Shown: positions 11,477-15,942 of the stretch, in pieces
Numbering within the stretch: the stretch's first letter is position 1
Layout of the letters: each line of letters starts with the position of its first letter
DNA from: Solirubrobacterales bacterium
GTDB taxonomy: Bacteria; Actinomycetota; Thermoleophilia; Solirubrobacterales; 70-9
Direction: 5' to 3'
NCBI GenBank assembly: GCA_021155855.1
Contig: JAJNAZ010000010.1
Location: 1 to 64,000, forward strand
Length of the DNA: 64,000 nucleotides
Translations under genes and position numbers: made by a program
The notes under the pieces: model-generated
Told to the model about the DNA's origin: nothing
Database searches by the model: none
The model's input: the letters and a program-made list of their open reading frames with translations, nothing else

Positions 11477-12709
11477 TCACTGCCGCTGCCCGACGAGATT
11501 TTCGAGCGCGGAGTCGGGATTGGCCAGGCGTCTGGCATCGACGGGCTGCCGGGAGCGGATCAGCTCGCGGATCGCCTCGTTGACGTCCCAGACGTTGACG
11601 TTCATCCCGGCGACCACGCGTCCGTGCTCGAGCCAGAAGGCGATGAACTCGCGGCCCGCGACCTCTCCGCGGAAGACCACCTCGTCCCAGCTGGTGGCGA
11701 AGCCGCCGTACTCCATCCCGACCTCGTACTGATCGGAGAAGAAGTAGGGAATCTCCTCGTAGGCGACGGCCTGGCCGAGCATCGCCCGCGCGGCGACCGG
11801 TCCCTGGTTGAGCGCGTTGGCCCAGTGCTCGACCCGAAGGCGGCGGTCGTAGAAGGGGTGCTGCGCGTTGGCGACATCACCCGCGGCGAAGATCCCCGGG
11901 AGGCTGCTCTCGAGGCGCTGGTCGACGAGGATGCCGTCGTCGATTCGCAGGCCGGCGGTCTCGGCCAGGGCGGTGCGCGGCGCGACCCCGATCCCGACCA
12001 CCACGAACTCGGCATCCAGCGACGCCCCGTCCCGGGTGAGGACGCGCTCGACCGAGCCCTCGCCCTCGAAGCGCTCCACCGTCGTCTCCGACAGGAACTC
12101 GACCCCGTGGTCGCGGTGGATGTCGAGGTACACCCGGCCGACCTCGGGGCCCAGTACCCGCTCCAGCGGCAGCGAGGCCATCTCGATCATCGTCACCTCA
12201 CAACCCTTCTGGCGCGCCGAGGCGGCGATCTCGGCGCCGATCCAGCCGGAGCCGACCACCACGAGCCGCTGGCCGCGCTCGATTCGCTCGCCGATCCGCC
12301 CGGAGTCGGCGACGGTTCGCAGGTAATGGATGCCATCGAGCTCCGAACCGGCCACGTCGAGGCGGCGGGGCGCGGCGCCCGTCGTCAGCAGCAGGCGGTC
12401 ATAGCCCAGGCGGCGATCCCCCTCCAGCAGCAGCTTGCGCGGCCCGGGGTCGATGGCGGTCACCCGGGTCGAGAGCAAAAGCTCGATCTCGTGATCGGAG
12501 TAGAAGCTCTCCGCGTGAACGTAGGGCTTGTCGGTGGTCTCGCCCCGCAAGTAGTCCTTCGACAGCGGTGGGCGCTCGTAGGGGCGCTCGGGCTCATCGC
12601 CGATCAGGATCAGCCGACCATCGAAGCCCTCCTCGCGAAGGGTCTCCGCCGCCTTCGCTGCGGCCAATCCGGCGCCGACGATGACGAAGGTCTGGGGTTG
12701 TGCGCTCAT
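11477..12709 (-). CDS. Ferredoxin/rubredoxin reductase-type flavoprotein
   Basis: 410 residues of a two-Rossmann pyridine-nucleotide oxidoreductase with a C-terminal reductase domain, like BphA4, putidaredoxin reductase and rubredoxin reductase. FAD site VIVGAGLAAAKAAETL at ~8-23, NAD(P)H site VVVGSGWIGAEIAASA at ~150, second FAD motif IFAAGDVAN at ~280, and the reductase_C fold ending near LENLVG. It would pass electrons from NAD(P)H to a ferredoxin or rubredoxin. No ferredoxin gene is adjacent; possible partners are the ferredoxin-dependent enzymes at 54-58 kb. It is unrelated in subfamily to the six SQR-fold proteins below, since it keeps a proper NAD(P)H motif. Shine-Dalgarno GAGAGGA precedes the ATG. 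Confidence 0.85.
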   Translation of the reverse strand: MSAQPQTFVIVGAGLAAAKAAETLREEGFDGRLILIGDEPERPYERPPLSKDYLRGETTDKPYVHAESFYSDHEIELLLSTRVTAIDPGPRKLLLEGDRRLGYDRLLLTTGAAPRRLDVAGSELDGIHYLRTVADSGRIGERIERGQRLVVVGSGWIGAEIAASARQKGCEVTMIEMASLPLERVLGPEVGRVYLDIHRDHGVEFLSETTVERFEGEGSVERVLTRDGASLDAEFVVVGIGVAPRTALAETAGLRIDDGILVDQRLESSLPGIFAAGDVANAQHPFYDRRLRVEHWANALNQGPVAARAMLGQAVAYEEIPYFFSDQYEVGMEYGGFATSWDEVVFRGEVAGREFIAFWLEHGRVVAGMNVNVWDVNEAIRELIRSRQPVDARRLANPDSALENLVGQRQ

Positions 12710-12838
12710 CTGGTCCTCTCTGGCTAGGGGTTGATCCGGCGCATTCGTCCGGCATTCTCGTATGCGTCGGCGCGAGCGCGCTTCTTACCCGTGCGGACGG
12801 CCGGTACGACCCGCGGCGCCCGCGATCGCCAAGCGGAC

Positions 12839-12928
12839 ATGGCCGCGAAACGACACCGAACTCGGCCCTTTGTCCTCTCCGGCGGCGCCAGCCTCGGCGC
12901 GGTCCAGTTCGGCATGCTCGCGGCCTGA
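12839..12928 (+). pseudogene. N-terminal remnant of a patatin-like phospholipase
   Basis: A 29-residue ORF reading RPFVLSGGASLGAVQFGML, which matches the oxyanion-hole strand-loop (glycine-rich GG-S/A-LGA) that opens bacterial patatin-like phospholipases. Such enzymes have about 280-330 residues; here the frame stops after AA, and no GXSXG nucleophile motif follows in any frame. I read it as the head of a deleted gene. The ECF-like promoter for the next operon starts within five bases of its stop codon. Confidence 0.55.
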
Positions 12929-12932
12929 GGTA

Positions 12933-12957
12933 AGAACCTTCCGTCCCGGGGCGCTAA
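12933..12957 (+). promoter_or_regulatory. Candidate ECF-sigma promoter A
   Basis: AGAAC at 12933-12937 and GCTAA at 12953-12957, 15 bases apart. GCTAA is followed by 6 bases and then the ATG at 12964, so the message would be leaderless. The same elements with the same spacing lie before the DoxX-like gene and before the secreted-helical-protein gene, suggesting recognition by the sigma factor encoded just downstream and autoregulation. Confidence 0.5.
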
Positions 12958-12963
12958 TCGGGT

Positions 12964-13212
12964 ATGGGGCCGAAAGCAAAGCGTCCATCCGCCGCCTCGG
13001 GCCGGCAACCTCTGGCTCCTCGAGACGACCTCGCCGGCTGGCGACGGCAGCGGCTCGTGGGCGCCGGCTTCGACGCCGAGCTGGCCGCGTCCGCCGCGGC
13101 CGATTGCGAGATCGATCTCCACGCCCTGATCGAGCTCGTGGAACGGGGCTGTCCTCCTCGGCTCGCGACCCGCATCCTGAGGCCGCTCGACCGCGAGAGC
13201 AATCCGTGCTGA
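12964..13212 (+). CDS. Small conserved helical protein
   Basis: 82 residues. The core DDLAGWRRQRLVGAGFDAEL, then LHALIELVERGCPPRLATRI and LRPLD, reads as three or four helices. Short proteins of this pattern (WRRxRL...GF...A...DLHALIELVERGCPP) are, from memory, common near regulatory genes in high-GC actinobacteria, without known function. A single Cys precedes a Pro-Pro turn. It starts a likely operon with the sigma factor 62 bases downstream, and its ATG is positioned as a leaderless start behind promoter A. Function unknown. Confidence 0.6.
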   Translation: MGPKAKRPSAASGRQPLAPRDDLAGWRRQRLVGAGFDAELAASAAADCEIDLHALIELVERGCPPRLATRILRPLDRESNPC

Positions 13213-13274
13213 GGGCGCCGCGAAGTCCCGCTGCTAGGGTCGAGGCCCCGCTCGAGCCCCCGCCGCGGCTTGCG

Positions 13275-13937
13275 ATGAGCCACCCGGATCAAGCCCCGCC
13301 CGTCATCGGCCCCGATGCGGAGTCGCGAGCCTGGATTCGCGGCCTGCGCGCGGAGGGCGTTCGCGGCGAGGATGCCCGCCGTCGCCTGCACGACCTGCTG
13401 CTGAGGGCGGCGCGCTTCGAGATCAACCGGCGGCGTGGGTCGCTCCCCCACCTACGCGGCGGCGACTTCGACGATCTTGCCCACCAGGCGGCCGACGACG
13501 CCCTGCTGGCGATCCTCGGCAAGCTCGACGGCTATCGCGGCGAGAGCCGATTCACCACCTGGGCGTACAAGTTCGCCCTGCTCGAGGCCGCGGTCAGGCT
13601 TCGCCGTCGCGCCTGGCAAAGCCGTGAGGTGCCGCTCGAGCCCGAGCACTGGTCGGTTCTCCCGGGCCCGGACGCTTCGCCTGCGACCAGCGCCGAGGGC
13701 CGCGAGGTGCTCGGCTCGCTCGCCGAGGCGATCGAGACCGAGCTCTCGCGACATCAGCGCGAGGTCCTGGTCGCGATCGCGCTCAACGGGGTGCCGATCG
13801 ATGTCTTGGCCGACCGGCTGAACACGACCCGTGGCGCCCTCTACAAGACGGTCCACGACGCGCGAAGGAAGCTGCGCACCCACCTGGCCGATGCCGGCCT
13901 CAGATTCGCAGCCGAGCCAGAGGAGGCGAGCCGATGA
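13275..13937 (+). CDS. ECF-type sigma-70 family sigma factor
   Basis: 220 residues with sigma regions 2 and 4 only. Region 2 spans ~60-115 (DDLAHQAADDALLAI, YRGESRFTTWAYKFALLEAA); region 4 covers ~160-210 (LSRHQREVLVAIALNGVPID, then LADRLNTTRGALYKTVHDAR) with a helix-turn-helix. It would direct RNA polymerase to a specific promoter set. Its stop overlaps the ATG of a zinc-finger anti-sigma gene (ATGA). Start ATG at 13275 was chosen because the frame upstream is not protein-like. A plausible regulon marker is the shared motif GTARGRRC-N15-GCTAA found in front of three local transcripts. Confidence 0.85.
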   Translation: MSHPDQAPPVIGPDAESRAWIRGLRAEGVRGEDARRRLHDLLLRAARFEINRRRGSLPHLRGGDFDDLAHQAADDALLAILGKLDGYRGESRFTTWAYKFALLEAAVRLRRRAWQSREVPLEPEHWSVLPGPDASPATSAEGREVLGSLAEAIETELSRHQREVLVAIALNGVPIDVLADRLNTTRGALYKTVHDARRKLRTHLADAGLRFAAEPEEASR

Positions 13938-14179
13938 GCGAGCGACGAACGCCAGACGATCTCGAGCTGCTCAGGAACCTGCTCGGTCCCGAGGGGCCGG
14001 AATTGAGCTGCGAGCAATGCTTCGCCGAGCTCGATCGTTACGTCGAGCTGGAGCTGAGCGAGGCCGACCCCGATCTCGCGGTGCCCGGCATGCGGGCGCA
14101 CCTCGAGGGATGCGGGGCCTGCGCCGAGGATCACCGCAGCCTGCGAGCCCTGGTCGAGGCCGAGACGGCCCCCGAGTAG
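13934..14179 (+). CDS. Zinc-finger anti-sigma factor
   Basis: 81 residues. Cysteines occur as SCEQC near residue 26-30 and in HLEGCGACAED at ~56-66, the HxxxCxxC layout of the zf-HC2/ZAS family that holds an ECF sigma inactive. There is no membrane segment, so it is a soluble anti-sigma, often redox- or metal-responsive in this family. It overlaps the sigma gene by four bases, which fixes the partnership. Confidence 0.8.
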   Translation: MSERRTPDDLELLRNLLGPEGPELSCEQCFAELDRYVELELSEADPDLAVPGMRAHLEGCGACAEDHRSLRALVEAETAPE

Positions 14180-14203
14180 GAACGGACTCCGGTTGGTCGC
14201 TAA
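14179..14203 (+). promoter_or_regulatory. Candidate ECF-sigma promoter B
   Basis: GGAAC at 14179-14183, then 15 bases, then GCTAA at 14199-14203. It starts at the last base of the anti-sigma stop codon and sits 31 bases before the DoxX-like gene. The -35 half GGAAC is typical of ECF promoters. Confidence 0.5.
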
Positions 14204-14234
14204 GTAGGTAACGACCTTCCGAAAGGAGCAACCG

Positions 14235-14777
14235 ATGAACACCATCGCCGCCTTCCTGCGGCCGATCCCGTTTCCAGCCCTCTCGCGACTTCGCGAGGAC
14301 CCCGTCAGCCAGGCCTTCACCCTGTTGCGGATCGGGTTCGCGGTGCTGCCGATCCTCATGGGACTCGACAAGTTCGCCGAGGTGCTGAACGACAACTGGA
14401 CCGCGTATCTGGCCAGTGAGTTCAACGACGTCATCCCGGGCAGCGCCCAGGACGCCATGTACGCGGTCGGCGTCGTCGAGATCCTCGCCGGGATCATCGT
14501 CTTGATCGTGCCCCGATTCGGTGGGGTGCTGGTCGCGGGCTGGCTCGGAGGAATCATTCTCAGCCTGCTGCTGGTCGGCGGCTACGGCGACATCGCACTG
14601 CGCGACTTCGGGCTCCTGCTCGGCGCCCTGACGCTGTCTCGCCTCGCCGGCGCCGAGTCCGCCATCGCGGCCGACGATCGAACCGCTCCGAAGGTCCACC
14701 GCCCGGCAGCCCCGTCCGCCGGCCACGGGAGCGCCGAGTCGTCAGCGGCCTCGAGCGCTCGGCAGCCCACGATGTAA
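14235..14777 (+). CDS. DoxX-like membrane protein
   Basis: 180 residues with four hydrophobic segments (around LLRIGFAVLPILMGLDKF, VGVVEILAGIIVLIVP, VLVAGWLGGIILSLLLVGGY and DFGLLLGALTLSRLAG), and the 'GLDKF...W' pattern of the DoxX/DoxD family. Family members are linked to thiol and redox stress in actinobacteria, but the reaction here is unknown. The last 40 residues are polar and low-complexity. Good Shine-Dalgarno (GAAAGGAG) before the ATG. Its expression probably depends on the neighbouring ECF sigma via promoter B. Confidence 0.75.
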   Translation: MNTIAAFLRPIPFPALSRLREDPVSQAFTLLRIGFAVLPILMGLDKFAEVLNDNWTAYLASEFNDVIPGSAQDAMYAVGVVEILAGIIVLIVPRFGGVLVAGWLGGIILSLLLVGGYGDIALRDFGLLLGALTLSRLAGAESAIAADDRTAPKVHRPAAPSAGHGSAESSAASSARQPTM

Positions 14778-15110
14778 GACCTCCGCGAGGACGACGGCAT
14801 TGTTGTGCTCGGTGTCGCGTGCGGCGTAGACGAGGGTCAGCGTTTCCCCGCGAGCTCGGCGCCTGAGGGCGGCGAGCCGCGGGCGCTGGCTGCGAAGCTC
14901 CTCGATGTACCGACGGCGAAACGCTTCGAAGCGCTTCGGCTCGTGCCCGAACCACTGCCTCAACTCGGTGCTCGGTGAGAGCTCCCTCTCCCAGGCGTCG
15001 AGCTTGGCTCGCTCGCGTGAGACCCCTCGCGGCCACAACCGATCGACCAGCACCCGAAAGCCAGCGGCGGGGACGGGGGGCGCGTGCGCCCGCTTCAGGC
15101 GGATGTCGAT
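14742..15110 (-). CDS. DUF488 family protein, apparent ATC start
   Basis: 122 residues if started at the ATC at 15110; 103 residues if started at the first canonical codon (GTG at 15053). The conserved DUF488 block LVDRLWPRGVSRE is intact, followed by WFGHEPKRFEAFRRRY and a final LVYAARDTEHNNA. The family N-terminus (short strand I-R-L-K-R before the VLVDRLWPRG block) is present only upstream of the GTG: translation from ATC gives DIRLKRAHAPPVPAAGFR. GAGAGGAG lies five bases before this ATC, while the GTG has no Shine-Dalgarno. No ATG, GTG or TTG exists in frame in between. The function of DUF488 is not established. The 3' end overlaps the DoxX gene (convergent). Confidence 0.75.
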   Translation of the reverse strand: MDIRLKRAHAPPVPAAGFRVLVDRLWPRGVSRERAKLDAWERELSPSTELRQWFGHEPKRFEAFRRRYIEELRSQRPRLAALRRRARGETLTLVYAARDTEHNNAVVLAEVLHRGLPSARGR

Positions 15111-15140
15111 TGCGACTCCTCTCGGGCTGGGGCCGAGGTA

Positions 15141-15165
15141 AGGGCATCCGCTCGCGCGGCGCTAA
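15141..15165 (+). promoter_or_regulatory. Candidate ECF-sigma promoter C
   Basis: AGGGC at 15141-15145, 15 bases, GCTAA at 15161-15165. The eleven bases ending in this -35 (GAGGTAAGGGC) share nine with promoter A. It drives rightward into the secreted helical protein, whose ATG is 55 bases downstream behind GAGAGGAG. Confidence 0.45.
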
Positions 15166-15219: not shown

Positions 15220-15942
15220 ATGACCACTCAGACCACGCGCGGCCACCGCCGCTCCAGGTTCACCGTACTGATCGCCACCGTAGGAGCGGCGCTCGCGCTC
15301 GCGCTTTCGACCGGCGGCGGCCAGGACGATGATTCCGTGGCCGTCGCCGACCAGGCGGTTGCCGCGGAGCACGATCACGCGAGCGCGTCCCCCCAGGTTC
15401 ATACGGAGGCCGCTCATGCGTTCCAGGACGAGATGCGAAAGCTCTGGGAGGACCACGTCACCTGGACTCGCCTGGCGATCGTCTCCTTCGTCGATGACCT
15501 GTCCGACCTGGAGCCGACCGTAGCGCGCCTGATGCGCAACCAGAGCGATATCGGCGACGCGATCAAGCCCTATTACGGCGAGCAGGCCGGCGATCGGCTG
15601 ACCGAGCTGCTCGAAGGCCACATCAACGGCGCTGTCGATCTGCTCGGCGCCGCCAAGGCCGGCGACCAAGAGCGGCTGAAGAGGGCAAACGCAGCCTGGT
15701 ATCGGAACGGGAACCAGATCGCGGACTTCCTCAGCGACGCGAACCCGGACAACTGGCCCCGGCGCGAGATGCGCTCGATGATGAAGACGCACCTCGATCA
15801 GACGATCGCTGAGGCGACCCAGCGGCTCGAGGGCGACCACGTCGCCGAGATCCGCACCTACGACGAGATCCATCTCCACATCCTCGAGATGGCAGACGCG
15901 CTGAGCGACGGCATCGTCGCCCAGTTCCCGGAGCGCTTCTAG
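15220..15942 (+). CDS. Exported or membrane-anchored all-helical protein
   Basis: 240 residues. Residues ~14-30 form an N-terminal signal or anchor (FTVLIATVGAALALALST), then a polar linker with a His-rich bit, then ~185 residues of helices: MRKLWEDHVTWTRLAIVSFV, FLSDANPDNWPRREMRSMMK, and a terminal helix ending in PERF. The same helical core (LWEDHVTWTR...FYGE...L...H) occurs in Bacillus and actinobacterial proteins of unknown role. Conserved His and Glu residues along the helices would permit metal binding, but that is inference. Behind promoter C, so probably part of the ECF regulon. Confidence 0.6.
   Translation: MTTQTTRGHRRSRFTVLIATVGAALALALSTGGGQDDDSVAVADQAVAAEHDHASASPQVHTEAAHAFQDEMRKLWEDHVTWTRLAIVSFVDDLSDLEPTVARLMRNQSDIGDAIKPYYGEQAGDRLTELLEGHINGAVDLLGAAKAGDQERLKRANAAWYRNGNQIADFLSDANPDNWPRREMRSMMKTHLDQTIAEATQRLEGDHVAEIRTYDEIHLHILEMADALSDGIVAQFPERF

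Follow-up and report, generated by a model that had tools for sequence, protein, structure and literature searches.

A conserved two-box sequence in the genome of a Solirubrobacterales bacterium appears to be the promoter of an autoregulated ECF sigma factor, which would be held by a small soluble zinc anti-sigma factor and would control a redox-stress regulon. We put the probability of this reading, which is drawn from sequence comparison, at close to 90%. The window, i.e. the whole stretch of DNA that was analysed, comprises 64,000 nt (GCA_021155855.1, contig JAJNAZ010000010.1, positions 1-64,000, forward strand). The locus contains the following features.

11477-12709 (-): FAD/NAD(P) reductase with Pyr_redox_2 and Reductase_C domains (PF07992, 1.3e-67; PF14759, 1.1e-16), divergent, downstream of promoter D
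12761-12788 (-): predicted promoter D, GTAAGAAGCGCGCTCGCGCCGACGCATA, 51 nt ahead of the ATG of the divergent FAD reductase
12930-12957 (+): predicted promoter A, GTAAGAAC-N15-GCTAA, upstream of the small-protein/sigma/anti-sigma operon, with an ATG 6 nt downstream
12964-13212 (+): helical small protein of 82 aa, first in the operon and predicted to be leaderless, with a near-invariant Cys (RGCPP)
13275-13937 (+): ECF-type sigma-70 factor of 220 aa (TIGR02937, 1.4e-13; Sigma70_r4_2, 8.6e-06)
13934-14179 (+): soluble zinc-type anti-sigma factor of 81 aa (C...Hx3Cx2C), its start overlapping the sigma stop
14176-14203 (+): predicted promoter B, GTAGGAAC-N15-GCTAA, upstream of the DoxX gene, leader of 31 nt
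14235-14777 (+): DoxX-family membrane protein (PF07681, 4.9e-05)
15138-15165 (+): predicted promoter C, GTAAGGGC-N15-GCTAA, upstream of the gene for the exported helical protein, leader of 54 nt
15220-15942 (+): exported all-helical protein, modelled as an N-terminal helix followed by a domain of six helices, the latter with high confidence

The preliminary description had reported three GTARGRRC-N15-GCTAA sites of identical spacing before the operon, the DoxX gene and the exported-protein gene. A pattern scan of the window recovered all three on the plus strand and at these places, with the correction that site A starts at 12930, so that the start given earlier (12933) was 3 nt late. The view that the sites are unlikely to have arisen by chance was borne out, as 100 dinucleotide shuffles of the window gave 0 matches. 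Many random matches inside genes, which had been named as counting against the motif, were not encountered: in the genome of 2,828,895 bases (75 contigs) the exact consensus occurs only at the three sites, all beside the sigma gene, and the reversed consensus does not match anywhere. Allowing up to two mismatches gave 76 places in the genome, i.e. the three exact copies and 73 with exactly two mismatches; copies with one mismatch do not occur. With up to three mismatches the window contains 20 matches against 32 expected, and the consensus is therefore useful only in near-exact form.

Comparison of 85 distinct loci encoding relatives of the sigma factor (747,262 bases) refined the core to GTAAG[A/G]-N17(18)-[A/G]CNAA. 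There are 110 matches at a gap of 17 and 21 at a gap of 18 (131 sites), each of the eight wrong gaps (13-16 and 19-22) yields 0-5 matches, and the reversed pattern at gaps 17 and 18 yields none. Since the pattern was picked after viewing the same 85 loci these counts are in-sample, and the far-site test described below is cleaner. The position following GTAAG is A in 77% and G in 23% of the 131 sites, the next two positions are variable, and the -10 side reads C-G-A-C-[G/A]-C-N-A-A, in which the letters fixed by the pattern are at 100% by construction. Sites of other genomes share GTAAG and CNAA and vary in the GRRC tail of the original consensus, and the -35 box that had been assigned to the GGAAC type is of the GTAAGA type in these genomes. 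Promoter B, with GTAGG, is the off-consensus copy among A, B and C. De novo dyad counting upstream of sigma genes placed GTAAGA dyads near the top; the antisense control of this count was spoilt by divergent DoxX promoters. We consider the refined motif to be a conserved promoter, predicted to be of the ECF type.

A matrix (PWM) trained on 103 sites, with the window and the same-genus relative L034 left out, gave the highest scores in the window to A (25.8), D (22.9), C (20.4) and B (13.8), followed by a place at 10.2. Promoter A is conserved in L034 and L035, and homologues of the exported protein in L072, L093 and L103 are also preceded by sites. Promoter D had been missed because its -10 side ends in CATA instead of CNAA; it is kept in L034 at 50 nt with a score of 20.2. 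Of the 20 examinable FAD reductase homologues, seven have scores over 19, a further two carry an N18 site, and 11 are without a good site. Maximum scores in 30 simulated windows ranged from 5.8 to 16.6, and three of them reached or exceeded that of promoter B, whose matrix score by itself does not reach significance in 64 kb. Promoter B, which overlaps the 3' end of the anti-sigma gene, therefore rests on its position and on its positional counterpart in L034, which is canonical (GTAAGACC...GTCGCCAA, at 33 nt).

Elsewhere in this genome four places matching the refined pattern and three with one mismatch were read as candidates for further regulon members, none of which was convincing. The places in L113, L150 and L151 lie inside long ORFs, and the one in L149 lies between an enolase gene and the next gene, pointing into the 3' end of the former. 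The L148 place has an ORF start 23 nt downstream but a score of only 10.2; the L147 and L115 places (12.0 and 1.7) have no near start. Between promoters D and A the window carries a remnant of the start of a patatin-like phospholipase gene (12838-12928, +), of which 19 aa at 12869-12925 are 89% identical to the L061 protein. The remnant is absent from L034, where the counterparts of D and A stand back to back; the patatin genes in L061 and L164 carry the motif.

The 220-aa protein has the sigma-2/sigma-4 composition of ECF (group 4) factors. TIGR02937 covers residues 35-204 with 50.8 bits (cut-off 42.9) and Sigma70_r4_2 lies at its cut-off of 25.7; region 2 alone is weak (15.1 against 24). Other ECF characters are the adjacent anti-sigma gene, which immediately follows the sigma gene here and in the majority of relatives, and the apparently autoregulated two-box promoter, site A and its counterparts. 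Actinobacterial relatives of the sigma factor share about 45-53% identity, and its only matches among solved structures are SigH of M. tuberculosis and a SigH/SigE chimera. Presumably it belongs to a numbered group of the ECF classification.

The anti-sigma factor matches zf-HC2 (0.029) and the RsrA model (0.0039) below their cut-offs, and at 17.2 bits against the NCBIfam equivalog cut-off of 62.5 it falls outside the RsrA family. Residues C26, H56, C60 and C63 are invariant in 31 of 31 aligned sequences and C29 is present in most; H56, C60 and C63 form the Hx3Cx2C motif of class I zinc anti-sigma factors (ASDI). According to passages of PMC7406223, the zinc motif is enriched in soluble class I anti-sigma factors, which are often linked to intracellular redox sensing, and the motif can also be purely structural. 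By analogy with soluble zinc anti-sigma factors in general, the protein encoded here may sense the redox state.

Neither the 82-aa small protein nor the exported helical protein has a Pfam or NCBIfam match, and in fold searches neither had a match at E <= 0.001. When solved structures were searched by sequence, the exported protein and the anti-sigma factor returned chance-level matches only. The small protein is modelled as four helices (pLDDT 76.5), its Cys is kept in at least 90% of 27 aligned sequences, and a search for plasmid relatives found none. The order small protein, sigma, anti-sigma recurs in relatives, and DoxX or the exported protein is often encoded close by. A DUF488 gene (inactive N3 subclade; 14742-15053, -) lies between the DoxX and exported-protein genes, overlapping the last part of the former on the opposite strand; in L152 the motif stands before a DUF488 homologue that is remote from any sigma gene.

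To describe the targets in relatives, 70 motif-preceded proteins were scanned, from which sigma, small-protein and DoxX targets, unnamed loci and cut ORFs had been dropped beforehand. They include seven FAD reductases, seven GTP cyclohydrolase I, four AhpC/TSA and two SelR proteins, one superoxide dismutase, one transaldolase and one pterin-binding enzyme, as well as short-chain dehydrogenases, hydrolases, lactonases and glycosyl hydrolases. The presence of FAD reductase, GTP cyclohydrolase I, AhpC/TSA, SelR and superoxide dismutase among the targets indicates redox stress. The wider regulon would thus be mainly one of redox and oxidative stress, in which DoxX and the exported protein recur, and the inclusion of GTP cyclohydrolase I and the pterin enzyme suggests that folate synthesis is supported as well. 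The proposal that the regulon includes envelope proteins is retained for DoxX and the exported protein, but a purely envelope regulon is not what the relatives display. As the preliminary description implied, the motif could be the promoter of this sigma factor and the regulon nevertheless answer envelope stress instead of cytoplasmic redox stress. The two recurrent local targets would agree with this, but the anti-sigma factor, at 81 aa, has no evident membrane segment in its sequence or alignment and the other targets are cytoplasmic redox or folate enzymes, and we consider an envelope-stress response unlikely, if still a serious alternative.

The distribution of the motif relative to the sigma gene was examined in genomes of the same order, 55 of 232 of which encode the sigma factor, the genome of the window included. 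From the 177 genomes without a sigma match 55 controls were hand-picked at steps, and the pattern used for scanning was GTAAGR-N16-CRCNAA. Of 54 genomes with the sigma gene 49 have the motif, against 15 of the 55 controls (Fisher 5e-12), and the number of places is 137 (0.685 per Mb) versus 22 (0.135 per Mb). Since the motif was learned near the sigma gene, distant sites give a fair test. Far sites, defined by a distance of over 10.5 kb to the sigma gene or by location on a different contig, make up 53 of the 137 places (0.265 per Mb). All 53 and all 22 control sites were checked for a homologue of a near-locus target starting within 200 nt downstream. Such a homologue follows 21 of the 53 far sites and 0 of the 22 sites in sigma-negative genomes (Fisher 1.8e-4); the other 32 far sites have no recognised target. 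Sigma-negative genomes may also lack some target genes. The far-site targets include DoxX, FAD reductase, GTP cyclohydrolase I, DUF488, patatin, the exported protein and the small protein. Among the far sites that lack a recognised target, one before a pyridoxamine-oxidase-like gene is shared by three members of a single genus (L159, L160 and L161).

The motif might instead serve a different sigma factor as promoter, or it might be bound by a classical regulator that has the sigma gene among its targets. The link between sigma factor and motif is comparative, and the matches in 15 sigma-negative genomes would be compatible with such a regulator. However, two boxes with a fixed spacing of 17-18 at a set distance from starts have the geometry of a promoter, and the motif tracks the sigma gene, with none of the matches in sigma-negative genomes preceding a recognised target, which makes this explanation very improbable. 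That the sites resemble each other through local duplication or coding constraint instead of promoter selection is largely refuted, for although conserved sigma coding sequence holds three of the 131 matches in other genomes, A, B, C and D have different spacers, 82 of 85 loci (including all 26 with the most distant sigma factors) have a site amid unrelated spacers outside that sequence, and wrong gaps yield almost no matches. The three coding matches (L097:5554, L101:5641 and L109:5554) show that the C-terminal coding sequence of the sigma gene can mimic the motif, which calls for caution in scans.

The motif, its conservation and its links to the sigma gene and to certain gene families are apparent in the genomes compared; that this sigma factor reads the motif is what we infer from them. 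Gap counts, co-occurrence and far-site targets all support the earlier proposal that the motif is the target of the sigma factor and that its gene is autoregulated. For an autoregulated sigma factor controlling a redox-stress regulon, the following mechanism is proposed. The cytoplasmic zinc anti-sigma factor would keep the sigma factor encoded next to it inactive and would release it upon redox stress, after which the freed sigma factor would guide RNA polymerase to GTAAG[A/G]-N17-[A/G]CNAA promoters. In this genome these would be four, all local: A for its own operon, B for DoxX, C for the exported helical protein and D for the FAD reductase. Further genes that follow this motif in relatives encode GTP cyclohydrolase I, peroxiredoxin-type proteins, SelR, superoxide dismutase and other redox proteins.

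The distances between motif and start codon suggest two kinds of transcript. Among the 131 sites an ATG follows at 6 nt in 37 cases and at 7 nt in 14 cases (51 together), with no more than nine at each of the remaining distances up to 39, which would fit a position of about -7 for the last A of the motif; the operon mRNA would then start at the ATG. An in-frame start 5-8 nt past the motif was found for 18 of 20 small-protein genes and 15 of 19 sigma genes, but for only one of 17 DoxX genes; in the window the distances are 6 nt for A, 31 for B, 54 for C and 51 for D. The sigma-operon sites are thus predicted to give leaderless mRNA and the DoxX sites mRNA with ordinary leaders. Leaderless transcripts are common in actinobacteria, and it is therefore the difference between regulator and DoxX leaders that is of interest. 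More speculatively, and in our view rather doubtful, the locus could represent an undescribed ECF group with a three-part switch, in which the small Cys protein serves as a sigma-binding adaptor or a redox co-sensor and the absence of a leader lets the regulator mRNA still be translated under stress, the DoxX mRNA being leadered.

The kind of system, an ECF sigma factor with a zinc anti-sigma factor, is known. SigR-RsrA of Streptomyces and systems of the SigH-RshA type are redox ECF systems whose promoter core is GGAAT/GGAAC...GTT. The present locus resembles them in the sigma gene adjoining that of a small soluble zinc anti-sigma factor, in the predicted autoregulation and in the redox targets, but differs in its promoter core (GTAAGA...CNAA), in an anti-sigma factor that scores far under the RsrA cut-off and in an operon led by an extra 82-aa protein. 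DoxX is mentioned in papers on ECF stress regulons of Gram-negative bacteria of another phylum (RpoE2 of Haemophilus, SigF of Caulobacter). The literature searched, including portions of PMC3817407, PMC8103513 and PMC7406223, contained no paper tied to the motif, and an earlier publication is still possible; the same literature gave no description of the motif specificity, the regulon or the small protein.

A species-wide scan (one genome per species, 84,980 species) provided 79 loci, the best 79 of 195 confirmed stretches. These loci belong to Thermoleophilia and other actinobacteria, together with a few records that carry the labels of other phyla. Many of these organisms are known only from metagenome-assembled genomes. 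With the results, promoter and regulon would be defined for an ECF sigma factor found in Thermoleophilia and in further actinobacteria. The specificity of the motif suffices for genome scans and for an orthogonal promoter-sigma pair, and the uncharacterised small protein and the exported helical protein emerge as candidate parts of a redox-stress response. In the same-genus genome a second, paralogous sigma gene (L034:7260-7718, 54% identical) lies downstream and is cut by the contig end.
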